Assembly: GCF_002355895.1 (NCBI RefSeq)
Contig: NZ_AP017652.1
Span: 1,273,001-1,337,000 of the forward strand
Source: Streptococcus sp. NPS 308
GTDB taxonomy: Bacteria > Bacillota > Bacilli > Lactobacillales > Streptococcaceae
Reading direction: 5' to 3'
DNA length: 64,000 nt
Made by a program: the position numbers and the translations under genes. Under the pieces are notes generated by a model. That model was given only the letters and a program-made list of their open reading frames with translations. It ran no database searches and was not told the DNA's origin. Positions 8,607 to 13,142 of the stretch are shown piece after piece; position 1 is the first letter of the stretch; each line of letters opens with the position of its first letter.

Positions 8607-9986
8607 TTATTTTTCAGCTGTAAGTGCAGCCATTGTGATGTAGTTGTAAGGTTTGTTAAAGTGTGGCAAGAAGAATAGGTCTGTCAAAGCCAACTTGTCA
8701 ATTGTCACATGTTCTTGGATAGCAAGTGAGAACATATGAATTCCCATGCTGATAGCAGAATCACGTGATACCATTTGAGCACCAAGAATTTCGCGACTGT
8801 CTTTATCAAAGACAATCTTGATGGCAACTTCATGGTTGTCGTGCTTCATAAATTCTGGTTTTTGAAGATCGTTAAAGCCTGTTTCAGTTGCGTTGTAACC
8901 AGCAGCTTTAGCTTTTTCAAGAGTCAAACCAGTTGAAACCATGTGCAGACCGTAGATTGAGATACCGTTTGATCCTTGTACACCGATTCCTTCAAGTTCG
9001 TGTCCACAAGCGTTGTAAGCACCAACGATACCAGTACGAACAGCGTTTGAAGCAAGCGCGATGTAGCTAGTGTCTTTACGAGCGTTGTCATAAACAGTCG
9101 CACAGTCACCTACTGCATAAACACCTGGAATTGATGTTTCTTGTTTCTTGTCTACAAGGAAGGCACCGTTACGGAAGAGTTCAATCTTACCATCAGCAAG
9201 AGCTGTGTTTGGACGGAAACCAACTGCAAGAACAACCATATCCACATCAAATGTTTCTTTGTCTGTTACCAAGCGTTCAACTTTACCATCACCTTGGATA
9301 GCTTTTACTGTTTGACCAAGTGCCAAGCGGATGTTGTTGTCTTCCAAGTTCTTCGCCATCATTTGAGTGAAGTCTTTGTCGTAGTAGCCGTTCAAAACAG
9401 TGTCTACGATATCAACAAGAACAACTTCTTTTCCAAGACGTTCGAAAGCTTCAGCAAGTTCAACACCGATATAACCACCACCAACAACTGCGATGCGCTC
9501 AAGGTGTTTGCTCTTGTCAGCAAGTTTTTCGATAACTTCTTCTGCGTTTTGGTACAACTTAACAAATTGAACATTTTCAAGTGTTGCTTTGAATTCGCGG
9601 TTGCCCTTAACGATTTCAACACCTTCGATTGGAGGCAAGATTGGAGTTGAACCAGTCGCAAAGATCAATTTGTCATAAGACTCTTTATGTTCTTGACCTT
9701 CAACTTCTGCTGTCACAACTTTATTGTCATAGTCGATTGAAAGAACAGGTGAGTTCATGTAAACTTTTGCACCCTTAGCTTCCAATTTTTCTTTATCAGA
9801 GTAGAACAAGCCTTCAGCTCCGTCGATTTGTTCCCCGATCCAAAGCGCCATTCCACAACCAAGGAATGAAATATTTGAGTTTTGGTCAAATACAACGATT
9901 TCATTTTCATGTCCAAAATTGTCCAACATAGTATTGATACATGCTGTACCAGCGTGGTTAGCACCAACTACAACGATTTTACTCAT
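8607..9986 (-). CDS. nox: NADH oxidase, water-forming
   Basis: Four-electron FAD-dependent oxidase reducing O2 to water with NADH; regenerates NAD+ in aerobic streptococci. 459 residues. N-terminal FAD Rossmann fold, the single redox-active cysteine Cys44 (SFLGCGM) that cycles through sulfenic acid, NADH-binding [13 protein letters not shown], second FAD motif GVYAVGDCA, and the C-terminal dimer domain. Divergently transcribed from the apbE operon; its promoter carries a cre-like site over the -35 box. Strong codon bias (few rare codons) suggests high expression. Confidence 0.97.
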
Positions 9987-10293: not shown

Positions 10294-11208
10294 TTGCCTC
10301 TTCGTTCACGTTCTGAACGACTCATGGGAACAACTATCACGATTTCATTAGTAGATGAACAGGCAGATTGCCTGCTTCAAGGAGCCTTTGATTTACTCAG
10401 AGAGCTCGAGTACCGCTTCAACGCCAACAGTCAAGAATCCGAATTGATGGAGATCAATCACCAGGCTGGAATTGCTCCGGTCAAGGTCCATCCTGACTTA
10501 TTTGAACTGATTGCTCTTGGGTTAGAACATAGTCTAGCTCCATCTAGCCATCTCAATATCAGTATTGGTCCCTTGATTCAAACCTGGCGAATCGGTTTTT
10601 CAGATGCTCTACTCCCCGAGCTAAACGAAATCGAAGCTGTCTTGCCTCTAGTTGACCCGCATTTTATCAAGTTAGATCCAGCTAGCTCTACTGTATTTTT
10701 AGAGAAAAAGGGAATGAAACTTGATTTAGGTTGCTTAGCTAAAGGCTATAGTGCAGATAAGGTTGCTCAGTATTTAAAAGTACACGGAGTCACTTCTGCC
10801 TTGATCAATCTCGGAGGAAATATCCTCACCATCGGGAACAATCAAGCCAAAGAAGGGAAAGACTGGCAAATCGGTATTCAAGATCCACGAAATCCTCGTG
10901 GCAATCATCTCCTAACCATTCCTGTTTCTAACAAATCCGTCGTCACTTCTGGTATCTATGAACGCCACATGACAATAGACGGAGAAGACTATCACCATAT
11001 TTTTGATAGCGAGACAGGATTCCCTGTCGAAACAGAGCTCGCTAGCCTAACGATTATCTCAGATAAATCCGTCGATGGTGAGATTTGGACAACCCGCCTA
11101 TTCGGAGAACGTAGCGCTTCTATCCTCTGGCAAGTCGAAAGTTTAGATGGCATCGAAGCCATTCTCATCGACAAAGAGGGGAACCTTACATGTTCTTCAG
11201 GCCTTTAA
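10294..11208 (+). CDS. apbE: ApbE-family FAD:protein FMN transferase
   Basis: Transfers FMN from FAD to a Thr/Ser of target proteins (Mg-dependent). 304 residues. The conserved core LDLGCLAKGYSADKV, the LINLGGN segment, and the C-terminal SGIYERHMTIDG...HHIFDSETGFPV are present. TTG 10294 is chosen: AAAGGAG lies 8 bases upstream, while the first ATG (10324) would cut into the conserved RLMGTTITI start. There is no signal peptide or lipobox, so it should act in the cytosol, unlike most ApbE lipoproteins. It is followed within 33 bases by two FMN-reductase-family genes, the second of which carries matching target motifs. Confidence 0.92.
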   Translation: MPLRSRSERLMGTTITISLVDEQADCLLQGAFDLLRELEYRFNANSQESELMEINHQAGIAPVKVHPDLFELIALGLEHSLAPSSHLNISIGPLIQTWRIGFSDALLPELNEIEAVLPLVDPHFIKLDPASSTVFLEKKGMKLDLGCLAKGYSADKVAQYLKVHGVTSALINLGGNILTIGNNQAKEGKDWQIGIQDPRNPRGNHLLTIPVSNKSVVTSGIYERHMTIDGEDYHHIFDSETGFPVETELASLTIISDKSVDGEIWTTRLFGERSASILWQVESLDGIEAILIDKEGNLTCSSGL

Positions 11209-11241
11209 ATTTGTATTATGTAAAAAGAGAAAGGAAATCTC

Positions 11242-11847
11242 ATGCTAAAACTTATTGCCATTGTTGGAACGAACTCTAAACGTTCTACAAACCGCCAATT
11301 GCTCCAATACATGCAAAAACACTTCGCCGACAAGGCTGAGATTGAACTTGTTGAAATCAAGGATATCCCTGTTTTCAACAAACCAGCAGATAAACTTCTT
11401 CCTGCTGAAATTCTTGAAATTGCGGCTAAAATTGAAGCATCTGATGGTGTCATCATCGGTACCCCTGAGTACGACCACTCAATCCCTGCAGTTTTGATGA
11501 GCGCTCTTGCTTGGCTATCTTATGGTATCTACCCACTTTTGAACAAACCAATCATGATCACTGGTGCTTCTTACGGAACTCTTGGTTCATCTCGTGCTCA
11601 ATTGCAACTTCGTCAAATCTTGAACGCTCCTGAAATTAAGGCAAATGTTCTTCCAGATGAATTCTTGCTTTCTCACTCTCTTCAAGCATTTAACCCAAGT
11701 GGTGACTTGGTTGACCTTGATGTCATCAAGAAATTGGATGCCATCTTTGATGACTTCCGTATCTTTGTGAAGATTACTGAGAAATTGCGCAATGCGCAAG
11801 AATTGCTTCGCAAAGATGCAGAAGAATTTGACTGGGAAAATTTGTAA
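11242..11847 (+). CDS. NADPH-dependent FMN reductase-family flavoprotein
   Basis: 201 residues with a flavodoxin-like fold: phosphate-binding loop GTNSKRSTNRQ near residue 10 and the flavin-contact segment GTPEYDHSIPAVLMSAL. It closely resembles the first ~190 residues of the next gene (shared NKPvMI.GASY..l.tSRAQ..LRqIL.AP pattern), indicating tandem duplication. AAAGGA precedes ATG 11242. It lacks the PAS-like part and the flavinylation tail of its neighbour. Probably reduces flavin or a quinone/azo substrate with NAD(P)H; partner likely the neighbouring flavoprotein (inference). Confidence 0.88.
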   Translation: MLKLIAIVGTNSKRSTNRQLLQYMQKHFADKAEIELVEIKDIPVFNKPADKLLPAEILEIAAKIEASDGVIIGTPEYDHSIPAVLMSALAWLSYGIYPLLNKPIMITGASYGTLGSSRAQLQLRQILNAPEIKANVLPDEFLLSHSLQAFNPSGDLVDLDVIKKLDAIFDDFRIFVKITEKLRNAQELLRKDAEEFDWENL

Positions 11848-11864
11848 GATAGGAGACCGAAAGA

Positions 11865-13109
11865 ATGAAATTTGTTGGACTTGTTGGATCAAACTACGAT
11901 CAATCATATAACCGCAAACTCTTGGAATTTATTCGTCGTAATTTCAAATTCAAATTTGAATTAGAAGTTCTTGAAATCGACGAAGTTCCAATGTTTAACC
12001 AAGACGAAAAATGGGACGAAAGCTTCCAATTGCGTTTCTTGTATAACAAGATTACACGTGCTGATGGTGTCATAATTGCGACTCCTGAGCACAACCACAC
12101 TATCTCAGCTTCTCTCAAATCTGTACTTGAATGGCTTTCATACGAAGTTCATCCATTTGAAAACAAACCTGTTATGATTGTGGGAGCATCATACTACGAC
12201 CAAGGGACTTCACGTGCCCAAGTTCACCTTCGTAAGATTCTTGACGCTCCTGGTGTCAATGCCTACACACTTCCAGGTAATGAATTCCTTCTTGGTAAAG
12301 CCAAAGAAGCTTTTGATAACAATGGAAACATCACCAACGAAGGCACTGTTAAATTCCTTGAAACTTGCTTAGATAACTTTGTAAAATACGTAGGAGTCGT
12401 TTCGAAATTGAAAAAACCAAAACCAATCGAACCAGAAGACTTGGATTGTGGAAAACCAATTGCTACAACCATTACAGAAGTTGACCCTGATGATCCAGAA
12501 TGGGTAGAAAAAGTTGCAGCAATCACTGGGGCTGTTTCTGGTGATACCTATGTCAAATTGGACCACGGTATCCTGACAGTTAACCAAATCGATATGTTCT
12601 TGAAAGCTATGCCATTTGAATTGACATATGCTGATGATAACAACCAATTCCTCTACTACAACAACGCTCACCAAGATCCAGACACCATGTTTGCTAAACG
12701 TGTACCACCTCAATCAGGTAGCCGTATGTCAACTGTGCATGGTTCTCTTCCGCCAGCACGCATGAAAAATGTAGAGTGGGTTATCGGAACACTTCGCAAC
12801 GGAAACCAAGAATACGTCCGTACGATCGTTCCAGGTTCTCCTGCAGGTGTCATCAACACACACAACTACCAAGCAATGTACTATCCTGATGGATCATACG
12901 CTGGAATCAATGAAATCGTCTTTAACTTCCAACCATGGCTTGACTGGTACCTAAAAGAAACGGGTCAACGTTTGGTGGGTGGTAGCGGATCATTTGCTCC
13001 TGCAGCTGGAGGTCATGGAGACGCCGATGCTACTTCTGGCGCTTCTGATTCAGGTGATGCTGGAGGCCACGGTGGTGACGCAGACGCTACTTCTGGTGCA
13101 AGCAACTAA
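11865..13109 (+). CDS. FMN reductase/PAS-like fusion with two C-terminal flavinylation motifs
   Basis: 414 residues in three parts. Residues 1-185 are an FMN-reductase fold (GSNYDQSYNRK loop, ATPEHNHTISASL). Residues about 235-365 resemble the PAS_10/DUF438-associated domain (LTVNQIDMFLKAMPFELTYA, then VPPQSGSRMSTVHGSLP). Residues 372-414 are a Gly/Ala/Asp tail holding two copies of DATSGAS (388-394 and 407-413). This fits the ApbE target pattern Dxx(S/T)GA(T/S), with Ser394 and Ser413 as predicted FMN acceptors. apbE is two genes upstream in the same operon. Family assignment is firm; covalent flavinylation is an inference from motif plus context. Confidence 0.88.
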   Translation: MKFVGLVGSNYDQSYNRKLLEFIRRNFKFKFELEVLEIDEVPMFNQDEKWDESFQLRFLYNKITRADGVIIATPEHNHTISASLKSVLEWLSYEVHPFENKPVMIVGASYYDQGTSRAQVHLRKILDAPGVNAYTLPGNEFLLGKAKEAFDNNGNITNEGTVKFLETCLDNFVKYVGVVSKLKKPKPIEPEDLDCGKPIATTITEVDPDDPEWVEKVAAITGAVSGDTYVKLDHGILTVNQIDMFLKAMPFELTYADDNNQFLYYNNAHQDPDTMFAKRVPPQSGSRMSTVHGSLPPARMKNVEWVIGTLRNGNQEYVRTIVPGSPAGVINTHNYQAMYYPDGSYAGINEIVFNFQPWLDWYLKETGQRLVGGSGSFAPAAGGHGDADATSGASDSGDAGGHGGDADATSGASN

Positions 13110-13115
13110 GAAACC

Positions 13116-13142
13116 AAAAAGGAGCCAGGTGGCTCCTTTTTT
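13116..13142 (+). terminator. Terminator of the apbE operon
   Basis: AAAAAGGAGCC / GGCTCCTTTTT, loop AGGT, followed by T residues. Confidence 0.9.

Follow-up and report, generated by a model that had tools for sequence, protein, structure and literature searches.

In Streptococcus sp. NPS 308, a three-gene operon encodes an ApbE without a signal peptide, an FMN_red protein, and a second FMN_red protein extended by a PAS_10 domain and a disordered tail with two predicted sites for covalent attachment of flavin mononucleotide (FMN); such sites are kept in nearly all homologues of this fusion protein. The operon was examined within a window of 64,000 nucleotides (assembly GCF_002355895.1, contig NZ_AP017652.1, positions 1,273,001 to 1,337,000; coordinates below are those of the window). 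Its genes lie on the same strand, separated by 33 and 17 bases, where an initial annotation made from the sequence alone had placed them:

10294..11208, + strand: apbE, TTG start, 304 residues, flavin adenine dinucleotide (FAD):protein FMN transferase, PF02424 E 1.4e-74
11242..11847, + strand: candidate A subunit, tail-less FMN_red protein of 201 residues, HcrA-like lineage, pocket signature TPEYD, PF03358 E 6.5e-34
11865..13109, + strand: candidate B subunit, FMN_red/PAS_10/flavinylation-tail protein of 414 residues, PF03358 E 1.9e-33, PF13596 E 7.8e-21
11865..12305, + strand: B FMN_red domain, residues 1-147, ChrR/FerB fold, pocket signature TPEHN
12588..12929, + strand: B PAS_10 domain, residues 242-355, from Pfam, with a Foldseek match to 2qkp
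12978..13106, + strand: B disordered Gly/Ala/Asp-rich tail, residues 372-414, predicted local distance difference test (pLDDT) <50
13026..13046, + strand: predicted flavinylation motif 1, DATSGAS, residues 388-394, putative acceptor Ser394
13083..13103, + strand: predicted flavinylation motif 2, DATSGAS, residues 407-413, putative acceptor Ser413, the penultimate residue of the protein
13116..13141, no strand assigned: terminator-like hairpin 3′ of the operon, listed by the scan on the – strand, with a T-run after the stem on the + strand too; the scan gave 2 such sites, no more than shuffled sequences (mean 2.2)

The predicted flavinylation tail and its conservation

The third gene product ends in GGHGDADATSGAS...GGHGGDADATSGASN. 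The initial annotation had reported two DATSGAS motifs in this 43-residue tail, and both are there. Since DATSGAS fits the published consensus of ApbE targets, D-x-x-[S/T]-G-A-[S/T], the last residue of which receives FMN (PMC12052999; here and below, statements about cited papers refer to the parts of them that were available), Ser394 and Ser413 are the predicted acceptors. Among the six-frame open reading frames (ORFs) of at least 120 codons in the window, only that of the 414-residue protein contains the canonical motif. When the tail was shuffled 200,000 times, two motifs arose at a frequency of 5.5e-5 and at least one at 0.018. The two copies are coded differently in the window, and in relatives the commonest codings end the first motif with TCN and the last with AGY. 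Chance or a repeat artefact as the origin of the motifs was ruled out by these shuffles, by the different codings and by conservation.

The latter was assessed in 157 distinct fusion proteins, obtained from 191 ORFs of fetched loci. This is not an even sample: 51 came from the best 80 of 191 matches and 106 from other loci, the latter covering 106 of the 120 fusion-bearing genomes of a Lactobacillales search plus a few more. Sites of the form D-x-x-[S/T]-[G/S]-A-[S/T] are kept in 155 of the 157, with the canonical motif in 138 and Gly-to-Ser sites only in 17; neither form occurs in L169, where the Asp is replaced at both sites, or in L183. With position 5 left free, the 71 tails of less than 77% identity have Gly at this position 124 times, Ser 70 times and Asp once. 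Counting both forms, two tails have no site, five have one, 103 have two, 39 have three, seven have four and one has seven, so that 47 of 157 carry three to seven sites, whereas a heterodimer has two pockets. In 152 of 155 proteins, the distance from the last site to the C-terminus is 1-3 residues. The linkers between the last two sites vary: the 85 streptococcal-type tails have 42 different ones and the 69 other tails have 68. The retention of the sites in 155 of 157 proteins beside such linkers argues that the motif is not there by chance. The longest tail, with seven sites of which six are canonical, belongs to a 539-residue ORF (L189).

The initial annotation had named, as an observation that would speak against it, homologues keeping ApbE and losing the motif. 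This is seen in part: in Streptococcus sp. DD10 the Gly is lost from both motifs (DATASAS and DATSSAS) and an apbE ORF is still present, and 16 further tails have Gly-to-Ser sites only; apbE is retained at 16 of these 17 loci. The signal-less ApbE clade may, to judge from these tails, accept Ser at motif position 5 (DxxSSAS). The Gly-to-Ser-only tails are those of L130, L135, L137-L141, L144, L153, L156, L157, L160, L168, L170, L173, L176 and L064. The pneumococcal-type proteins P0014, P0016, P0049, P0051 and P0052 terminate in DATAGASY; Ala thus occupies position 4 of their second site, which is perhaps weakened.

The signal-less ApbE and its association with the fusion

The first gene product matched PF02424 with 251.4 bits against a curated cut-off of 25.6, and the closest solved structure was the FAD:protein FMN transferase 7esa (E 9.6e-76), which we take to be Listeria FmnB. 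Only 10 residues separate the TTG start from the conserved MGT, and they include neither a hydrophobic segment nor a lipobox. A secreted or lipoprotein ApbE was ruled out by this N-terminus, which supports the earlier proposal that transfer would take place in the cytosol. Neither signal peptide nor lipobox appears in the available stretch of 186 of 187 aligned ApbE rows, some of which are cut by the end of the locus; the exception, L229, is of the secreted type.

The catalytic triad of ApbE is given in a review as Ser-His-Asp. With the Asp column placed by alignment to 7esa, the window protein keeps Ser219 and His235, and the place of the Asp is taken by Glu263 (codon 11080-11082). All aligned rows share the Ser and the His, and Glu replaces Asp in 185 of 187, the window included, mostly within the sequence S-x-D-G-E-I-W-T-T-R-L-F-G; Asp was found only in L229 and in the signal-less L228. 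In a second ApbE set, Glu is present in all 18 signal-less copies and Asp in all six signal-bearing ones. The replacement of the catalytic Asp by Glu in the signal-less ApbE clade is a new observation. Glu is also found in the ApbE encoded beside tail-bearing Lactococcus-type FMN_red genes (L195, L197, L199-L203, L205 and L211), and this form would be active if the apbE genes co-expressed in PMC11334425 are of the Glu type.

Genomes were searched for co-occurrence, as the initial annotation had proposed. A full-length fusion was found in 120 of 295 Lactobacillales genomes (among the matches listed, which were ranked by E-value, so that a very weak one may be missed), and ApbE of any type in 264 of them. 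ApbE was absent from none of the 120 fusion genomes vs 31 of the 295 overall (Fisher test, 5e-8, shared descent ignored); for Streptococcaceae, the figures were 0 of 124 vs 12 of 196 (3e-6, with shared descent again ignored). The gene lay within the fetched locus at 133 of the 157 fusion loci. Where the fetched locus had no apbE (20 fusion genomes), ApbE was encoded elsewhere in every case, and all 18 that could be classified contain one signal-less Glu-type copy.

The reverse association is looser. Among six chosen streptococcal genomes with a Glu-type ApbE and no fusion, two (G138 and G266) have HcrB-type proteins with an FMN_bind domain that could serve as substrate; in the other four (G068, G052, G419 and G398; loci L237-L240), neither a fusion nor FMN_bind was found, and the neighbouring genes were not informative. 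To that extent, too, ApbE is kept where the fusion motif is missing. Genome G130, the target of which is nearly identical to that of the window with a tail differing at at least one residue, has one ApbE only. It also has an HcrA/HcrB-like pair (L112:3723-4349 and L112:4345-6786), with an 814-residue FMN_red/FMN_bind ORF carrying DAVSGAS; a single ApbE may thus serve two targets in this genome.

The reductase pair, the PAS domain and known systems

The product of gene 2 shares 40% identity over 192 residues with the N-terminal domain of B, so its description as a tail-less paralogue of that domain stands; its role is better described in other terms. A partner FMN_red gene is present at all 157 fusion loci. 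A tree was built from 102 rows (88 different) of 53 chosen loci, in which the HcrA/HcrB labels of the streptococcal rows were given from domain make-up and recall. Gene-2-type rows fell together with HcrA-type partners (support 100/95). The N-domains of the fusion proteins formed a single group (100/99) and joined the HcrB-type N-domains (100/96). Because A and B form separate, old lineages and the partner occurs at 157 of 157 loci, gene 2 most likely encodes the partner subunit of a heterodimer of the FRedA/FRedB and HcrA/HcrB kind.

FRedA and FRedB of Lactobacillus johnsonii oxidise NADH only as a heterodimer, which has two FMN sites, yields 0.56 H2O2 per NADH and uses free FMN as acceptor with a Km of 20 µM; both have a conserved Glu followed, two residues on, by Asp75 (A) or Gln75 (B) (PMC4500961). 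The corresponding signatures are TPEYD in 145 of 157 A proteins and TPEHN in 149 of 157 B proteins. A has Glu and Asp as in FRedA, and B has Asn where FRedB has Gln; in sequence, the pocket asymmetry thus appears to match that of FRedA/FRedB in part. The two consecutive FMN_red genes, the PAS_10 domain and, in part, this asymmetry recall the FRedA/FRedB/LjPAS system, in which, unlike in the window, the PAS protein is separate and the reductase tail-less, and flavinylation of LjPAS is not considered in the available text (PMC4500961). As that paper notes, other species have homologues of LjPAS joined to an FMN reductase, EF1227 and Lp2732 being named in its figure 1. For HcrA/HcrB, the hydroxycinnamate reductase of Lactiplantibacillus plantarum, a heterodimer is likewise proposed (PMC10295242). 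Genes 2 and 3 belong to sister lineages of HcrA and HcrB, and most of the HcrB-type ORFs found here carry a flavinylation motif; HcrB-type proteins have FMN_bind and an FAD reductase part, in place of which the third gene product has PAS_10 followed by a bare tail. The name fumarate or hydroxycinnamate reductase, given to the DD10 homologue, was rejected for gene 3, which has no FMN_bind or FAD domain.

AlphaFold2 modelled the 414-residue protein with a mean pLDDT of 82 and a predicted template modelling score of 0.53, the FMN_red and PAS folds being confident. The PAS fold is closest to SMU_1151c (2qkp) and then to PF0695 (3cax), both uncharacterised; no ligand could be named from the fold, heme, LOV and other PAS structures scoring much lower.

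The carrier of the tail differs among relatives, a point missed by the initial annotation. In all five Lactobacillus genomes examined, the FMN_red pair is tail-less and the motifs belong to a PAS protein encoded separately, 231-250 residues long (for instance L230:6009-6746 on the – strand, L231:5510-6250 and L233:5509-6258; further tailed proteins are among P0121-P0210). A search with one such PAS protein gave 270 protein matches; among the best 120, 96 are shorter than 300 residues, the canonical motif occurring once or more in 90 of them, and of the 82 with at least 225 residues 81 carry one to three motifs and 52 carry three. The C-tail motifs include DATTGAT, DTATGAS and DTSSGAS, and the named sources include Lactobacillus jensenii and L. 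intestinalis. That stand-alone LjPAS-type proteins carry one to three predicted ApbE motifs is new; the type was assigned by size, family and genus, the sequence of L. johnsonii LjPAS itself not being part of the comparison. At nine Lactococcus-/Lactovum-type loci, the motif directly follows the FMN_red domain, with no PAS and with apbE adjoining, and the five of these that were inspected have no partner gene within ~1.5 kb. P0242, a close relative, is from Lactococcus garvieae, and three other genomes of the same genus as these loci (L191-L193) have the PAS fusion. In a phylum-wide sample, 43 of 348 genomes gave matches, in which the PAS domain lies in other proteins of ~400 residues; among the matches listed, only the two Streptococcus genomes matched the tail end. 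At 28 other loci, the longest fitting ORF was scanned over its final 80 residues and in no case had the motif there, at least five of these ORFs being neighbours instead of the PAS protein.

The core idea of the initial annotation was already published, which it did not note. FMN_red proteins with C-terminal tails of one or two motifs, encoded beside apbE in Firmicutes (Lactococcus lactis, L. taiwanensis), are flavinylated in E. coli with their cognate ApbE in a manner that depends on the Ser/Thr of the site (PMC11334425), which together with the conservation of the motif supports its identification as an ApbE target. Like those proteins, that of the window has FMN_red, an unstructured C-terminal extension, two motifs and apbE alongside; unlike in the fetched Lactococcus-/Lactovum-type loci, its motif follows a PAS domain. 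A cytosolic ApbE acting on a soluble fumarate reductase is described from Klebsiella pneumoniae (PMC12052999); the window ApbE is similarly signal-less with a predicted soluble cytosolic target, and differs in that target; it has Glu for the Asp of the described triad. For the Flavin-tag, an engineered DxxxGA[T/S] peptide placed at either terminus suffices for ApbE (PMC10722498), the window tail being a natural terminal peptide with two sites. Flavinylated FMN_red tails, a cytosolic ApbE and the reductase/PAS system are therefore known from these papers (PMC11334425, PMC12052999 and PMC4500961). New are the meeting of both lines of work in one protein, the presence of up to seven sites and the replacement of Gly by Ser.

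In the open literature, no paper was found that joins flavinylation, FMN reductase and a PAS domain, or that combines flavinylation, ApbE and NADPH-dependent FMN reductase; nothing pairs ApbE with Lactobacillus johnsonii or, from 2018, flavinylation with LjPAS. Streptococci are absent from the main text of PMC11334425, the Table S1 list of which may include streptococcal proteins, and neither Streptococcus, Lactobacillus nor FMN reductase appears in the text of the eLife survey PMC8238504. The pneumococcal orthologues are presumably SP_1471/SP_1472 and SPD_1301. No paper was found for SP_1471 with SP_1472, and in the text available SPD_1301 is only a row in proteomics or expression tables.

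A possible electron arm or cofactor anchor

The explanation towards which we lean, with limited confidence, is that the tail flavins are built-in acceptors of the heterodimer. The A protein and the N-domain of B would form a cytosolic NADH-dependent flavin reductase of the FRedA/B and HcrA/B kind with two non-covalent FMN sites, and the signal-less ApbE would transfer FMN from FAD to the two tail serines, Ser394 and Ser413, C-terminal to the PAS domain. The bound FMN would be reduced by NADH and pass electrons to the tethered flavins, which would replace free FMN and in turn give electrons to O2, producing H2O2, or to another soluble acceptor; the PAS domain would set assembly or activity. The gene order, the motif, the lineages and their conservation are plain from the sequences. 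Flavinylation, heterodimer formation, oxidase activity and the PAS effect are for this organism proposed by analogy, and the electron path from reductase to tail is a proposal for any organism. The soluble redox system suggested by the initial annotation is supported, at the level of sequence, by the conservation of the motif and the co-occurrence with ApbE.

Several observations weigh against this explanation. The Lactobacillus reductases sit on long branches and their position in the tree is unsure. Gly is lost in 17 tails and some ApbE genes have no known substrate, so the link between ApbE and tail is not absolute, and the co-occurrence counts take in any ApbE, secreted ones too. Glu263 stands in place of the triad Asp, though this is common to 184 of 186 aligned relatives. 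At the five Lactobacillus loci, the flanks fetched with the PAS gene contain no apbE, each genome having an ApbE. Regarding the final acceptor, FRedA/B reduced no quinone tested (PMC4500961).

The covalent flavins might instead be the reductase's own cofactors, the tail folding back to anchor FMN in both FMN_red pockets, as proposed for the Lactococcus proteins (PMC11334425). Two motifs would then correspond to the two pockets of one heterodimer, structural models place the site near the pocket (PMC11334425), and in the Lactococcus type the motif comes directly after the FMN_red domain. We nonetheless regard anchoring as unlikely, if a serious contender: 47 of 157 homologues have three to seven sites, the tail comes after the PAS domain and is modelled by AlphaFold2 as disordered, and in Lactobacillus it is on a separate protein. 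An arm fits better than a simple cofactor anchor because sites outnumber pockets in these homologues and the Lactobacillus tail is separate. It is improbable that the PAS domain reads redox conditions from the tail flavins, their oxidation state allowing or slowing heterodimer assembly as a post-translational oxygen switch with no relay; the slowing effect of LjPAS on FRedA/B does require that it be present before the dimer assembles, and anaerobic conditions repress the LjPAS gene, but that work used purified recombinant proteins and, in the text available, does not mention ApbE, so it is silent on a flavinylated PAS protein (PMC4500961). Very improbable, finally, is that the tail is a poor or decaying substrate of an ApbE mainly serving an HcrB/fumarate-reductase-like FMN_bind protein encoded elsewhere. 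The single ApbE of G130, with its 814-residue ORF, and the loss of Gly from some tails would agree with this; the retention of the motif beside variable linkers and the presence of apbE in the fusion operon at most loci do not.

A broader proposal, which we make tentatively and which may well fail, is that the tail, with its one to seven covalent FMN groups, is a cytosolic electron arm that can move between proteins in lactic acid bacteria. Its carrier would be FMN_red itself in the Lactococcus type, a PAS domain fused to FMN_red in Streptococcus, Enterococcus and their relatives, and a stand-alone PAS protein in Lactobacillus. LjPAS, which has been described as regulating H2O2 output, would on this view be a multi-flavin redox partner of the reductase, and the recombinant protein studied in vitro so far would have been the unflavinylated form. 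ApbE-dependent covalent flavins have mostly been studied outside the cytosol; if the reading is right, many lactic acid bacteria and oral streptococci (the 120 fusion genomes of the 295 Lactobacillales sampled) would carry a cytosolic, disordered multi-flavin arm. The H2O2-linked Lactobacillus reductase/PAS system would be recast as a covalent flavin system, and it would become clear why a PAS protein without known ligand travels with a reductase.

The closest homologues of the 414-residue protein are 99-100% identical, the host being near S. oralis. The operon is flanked by nox on one side and by a DUF896 gene on the other. The former (8607-9986, – strand), which encodes an H2O-forming NADH oxidase, another NADH-consuming flavoenzyme, adjoins the operon and is read outward from it.

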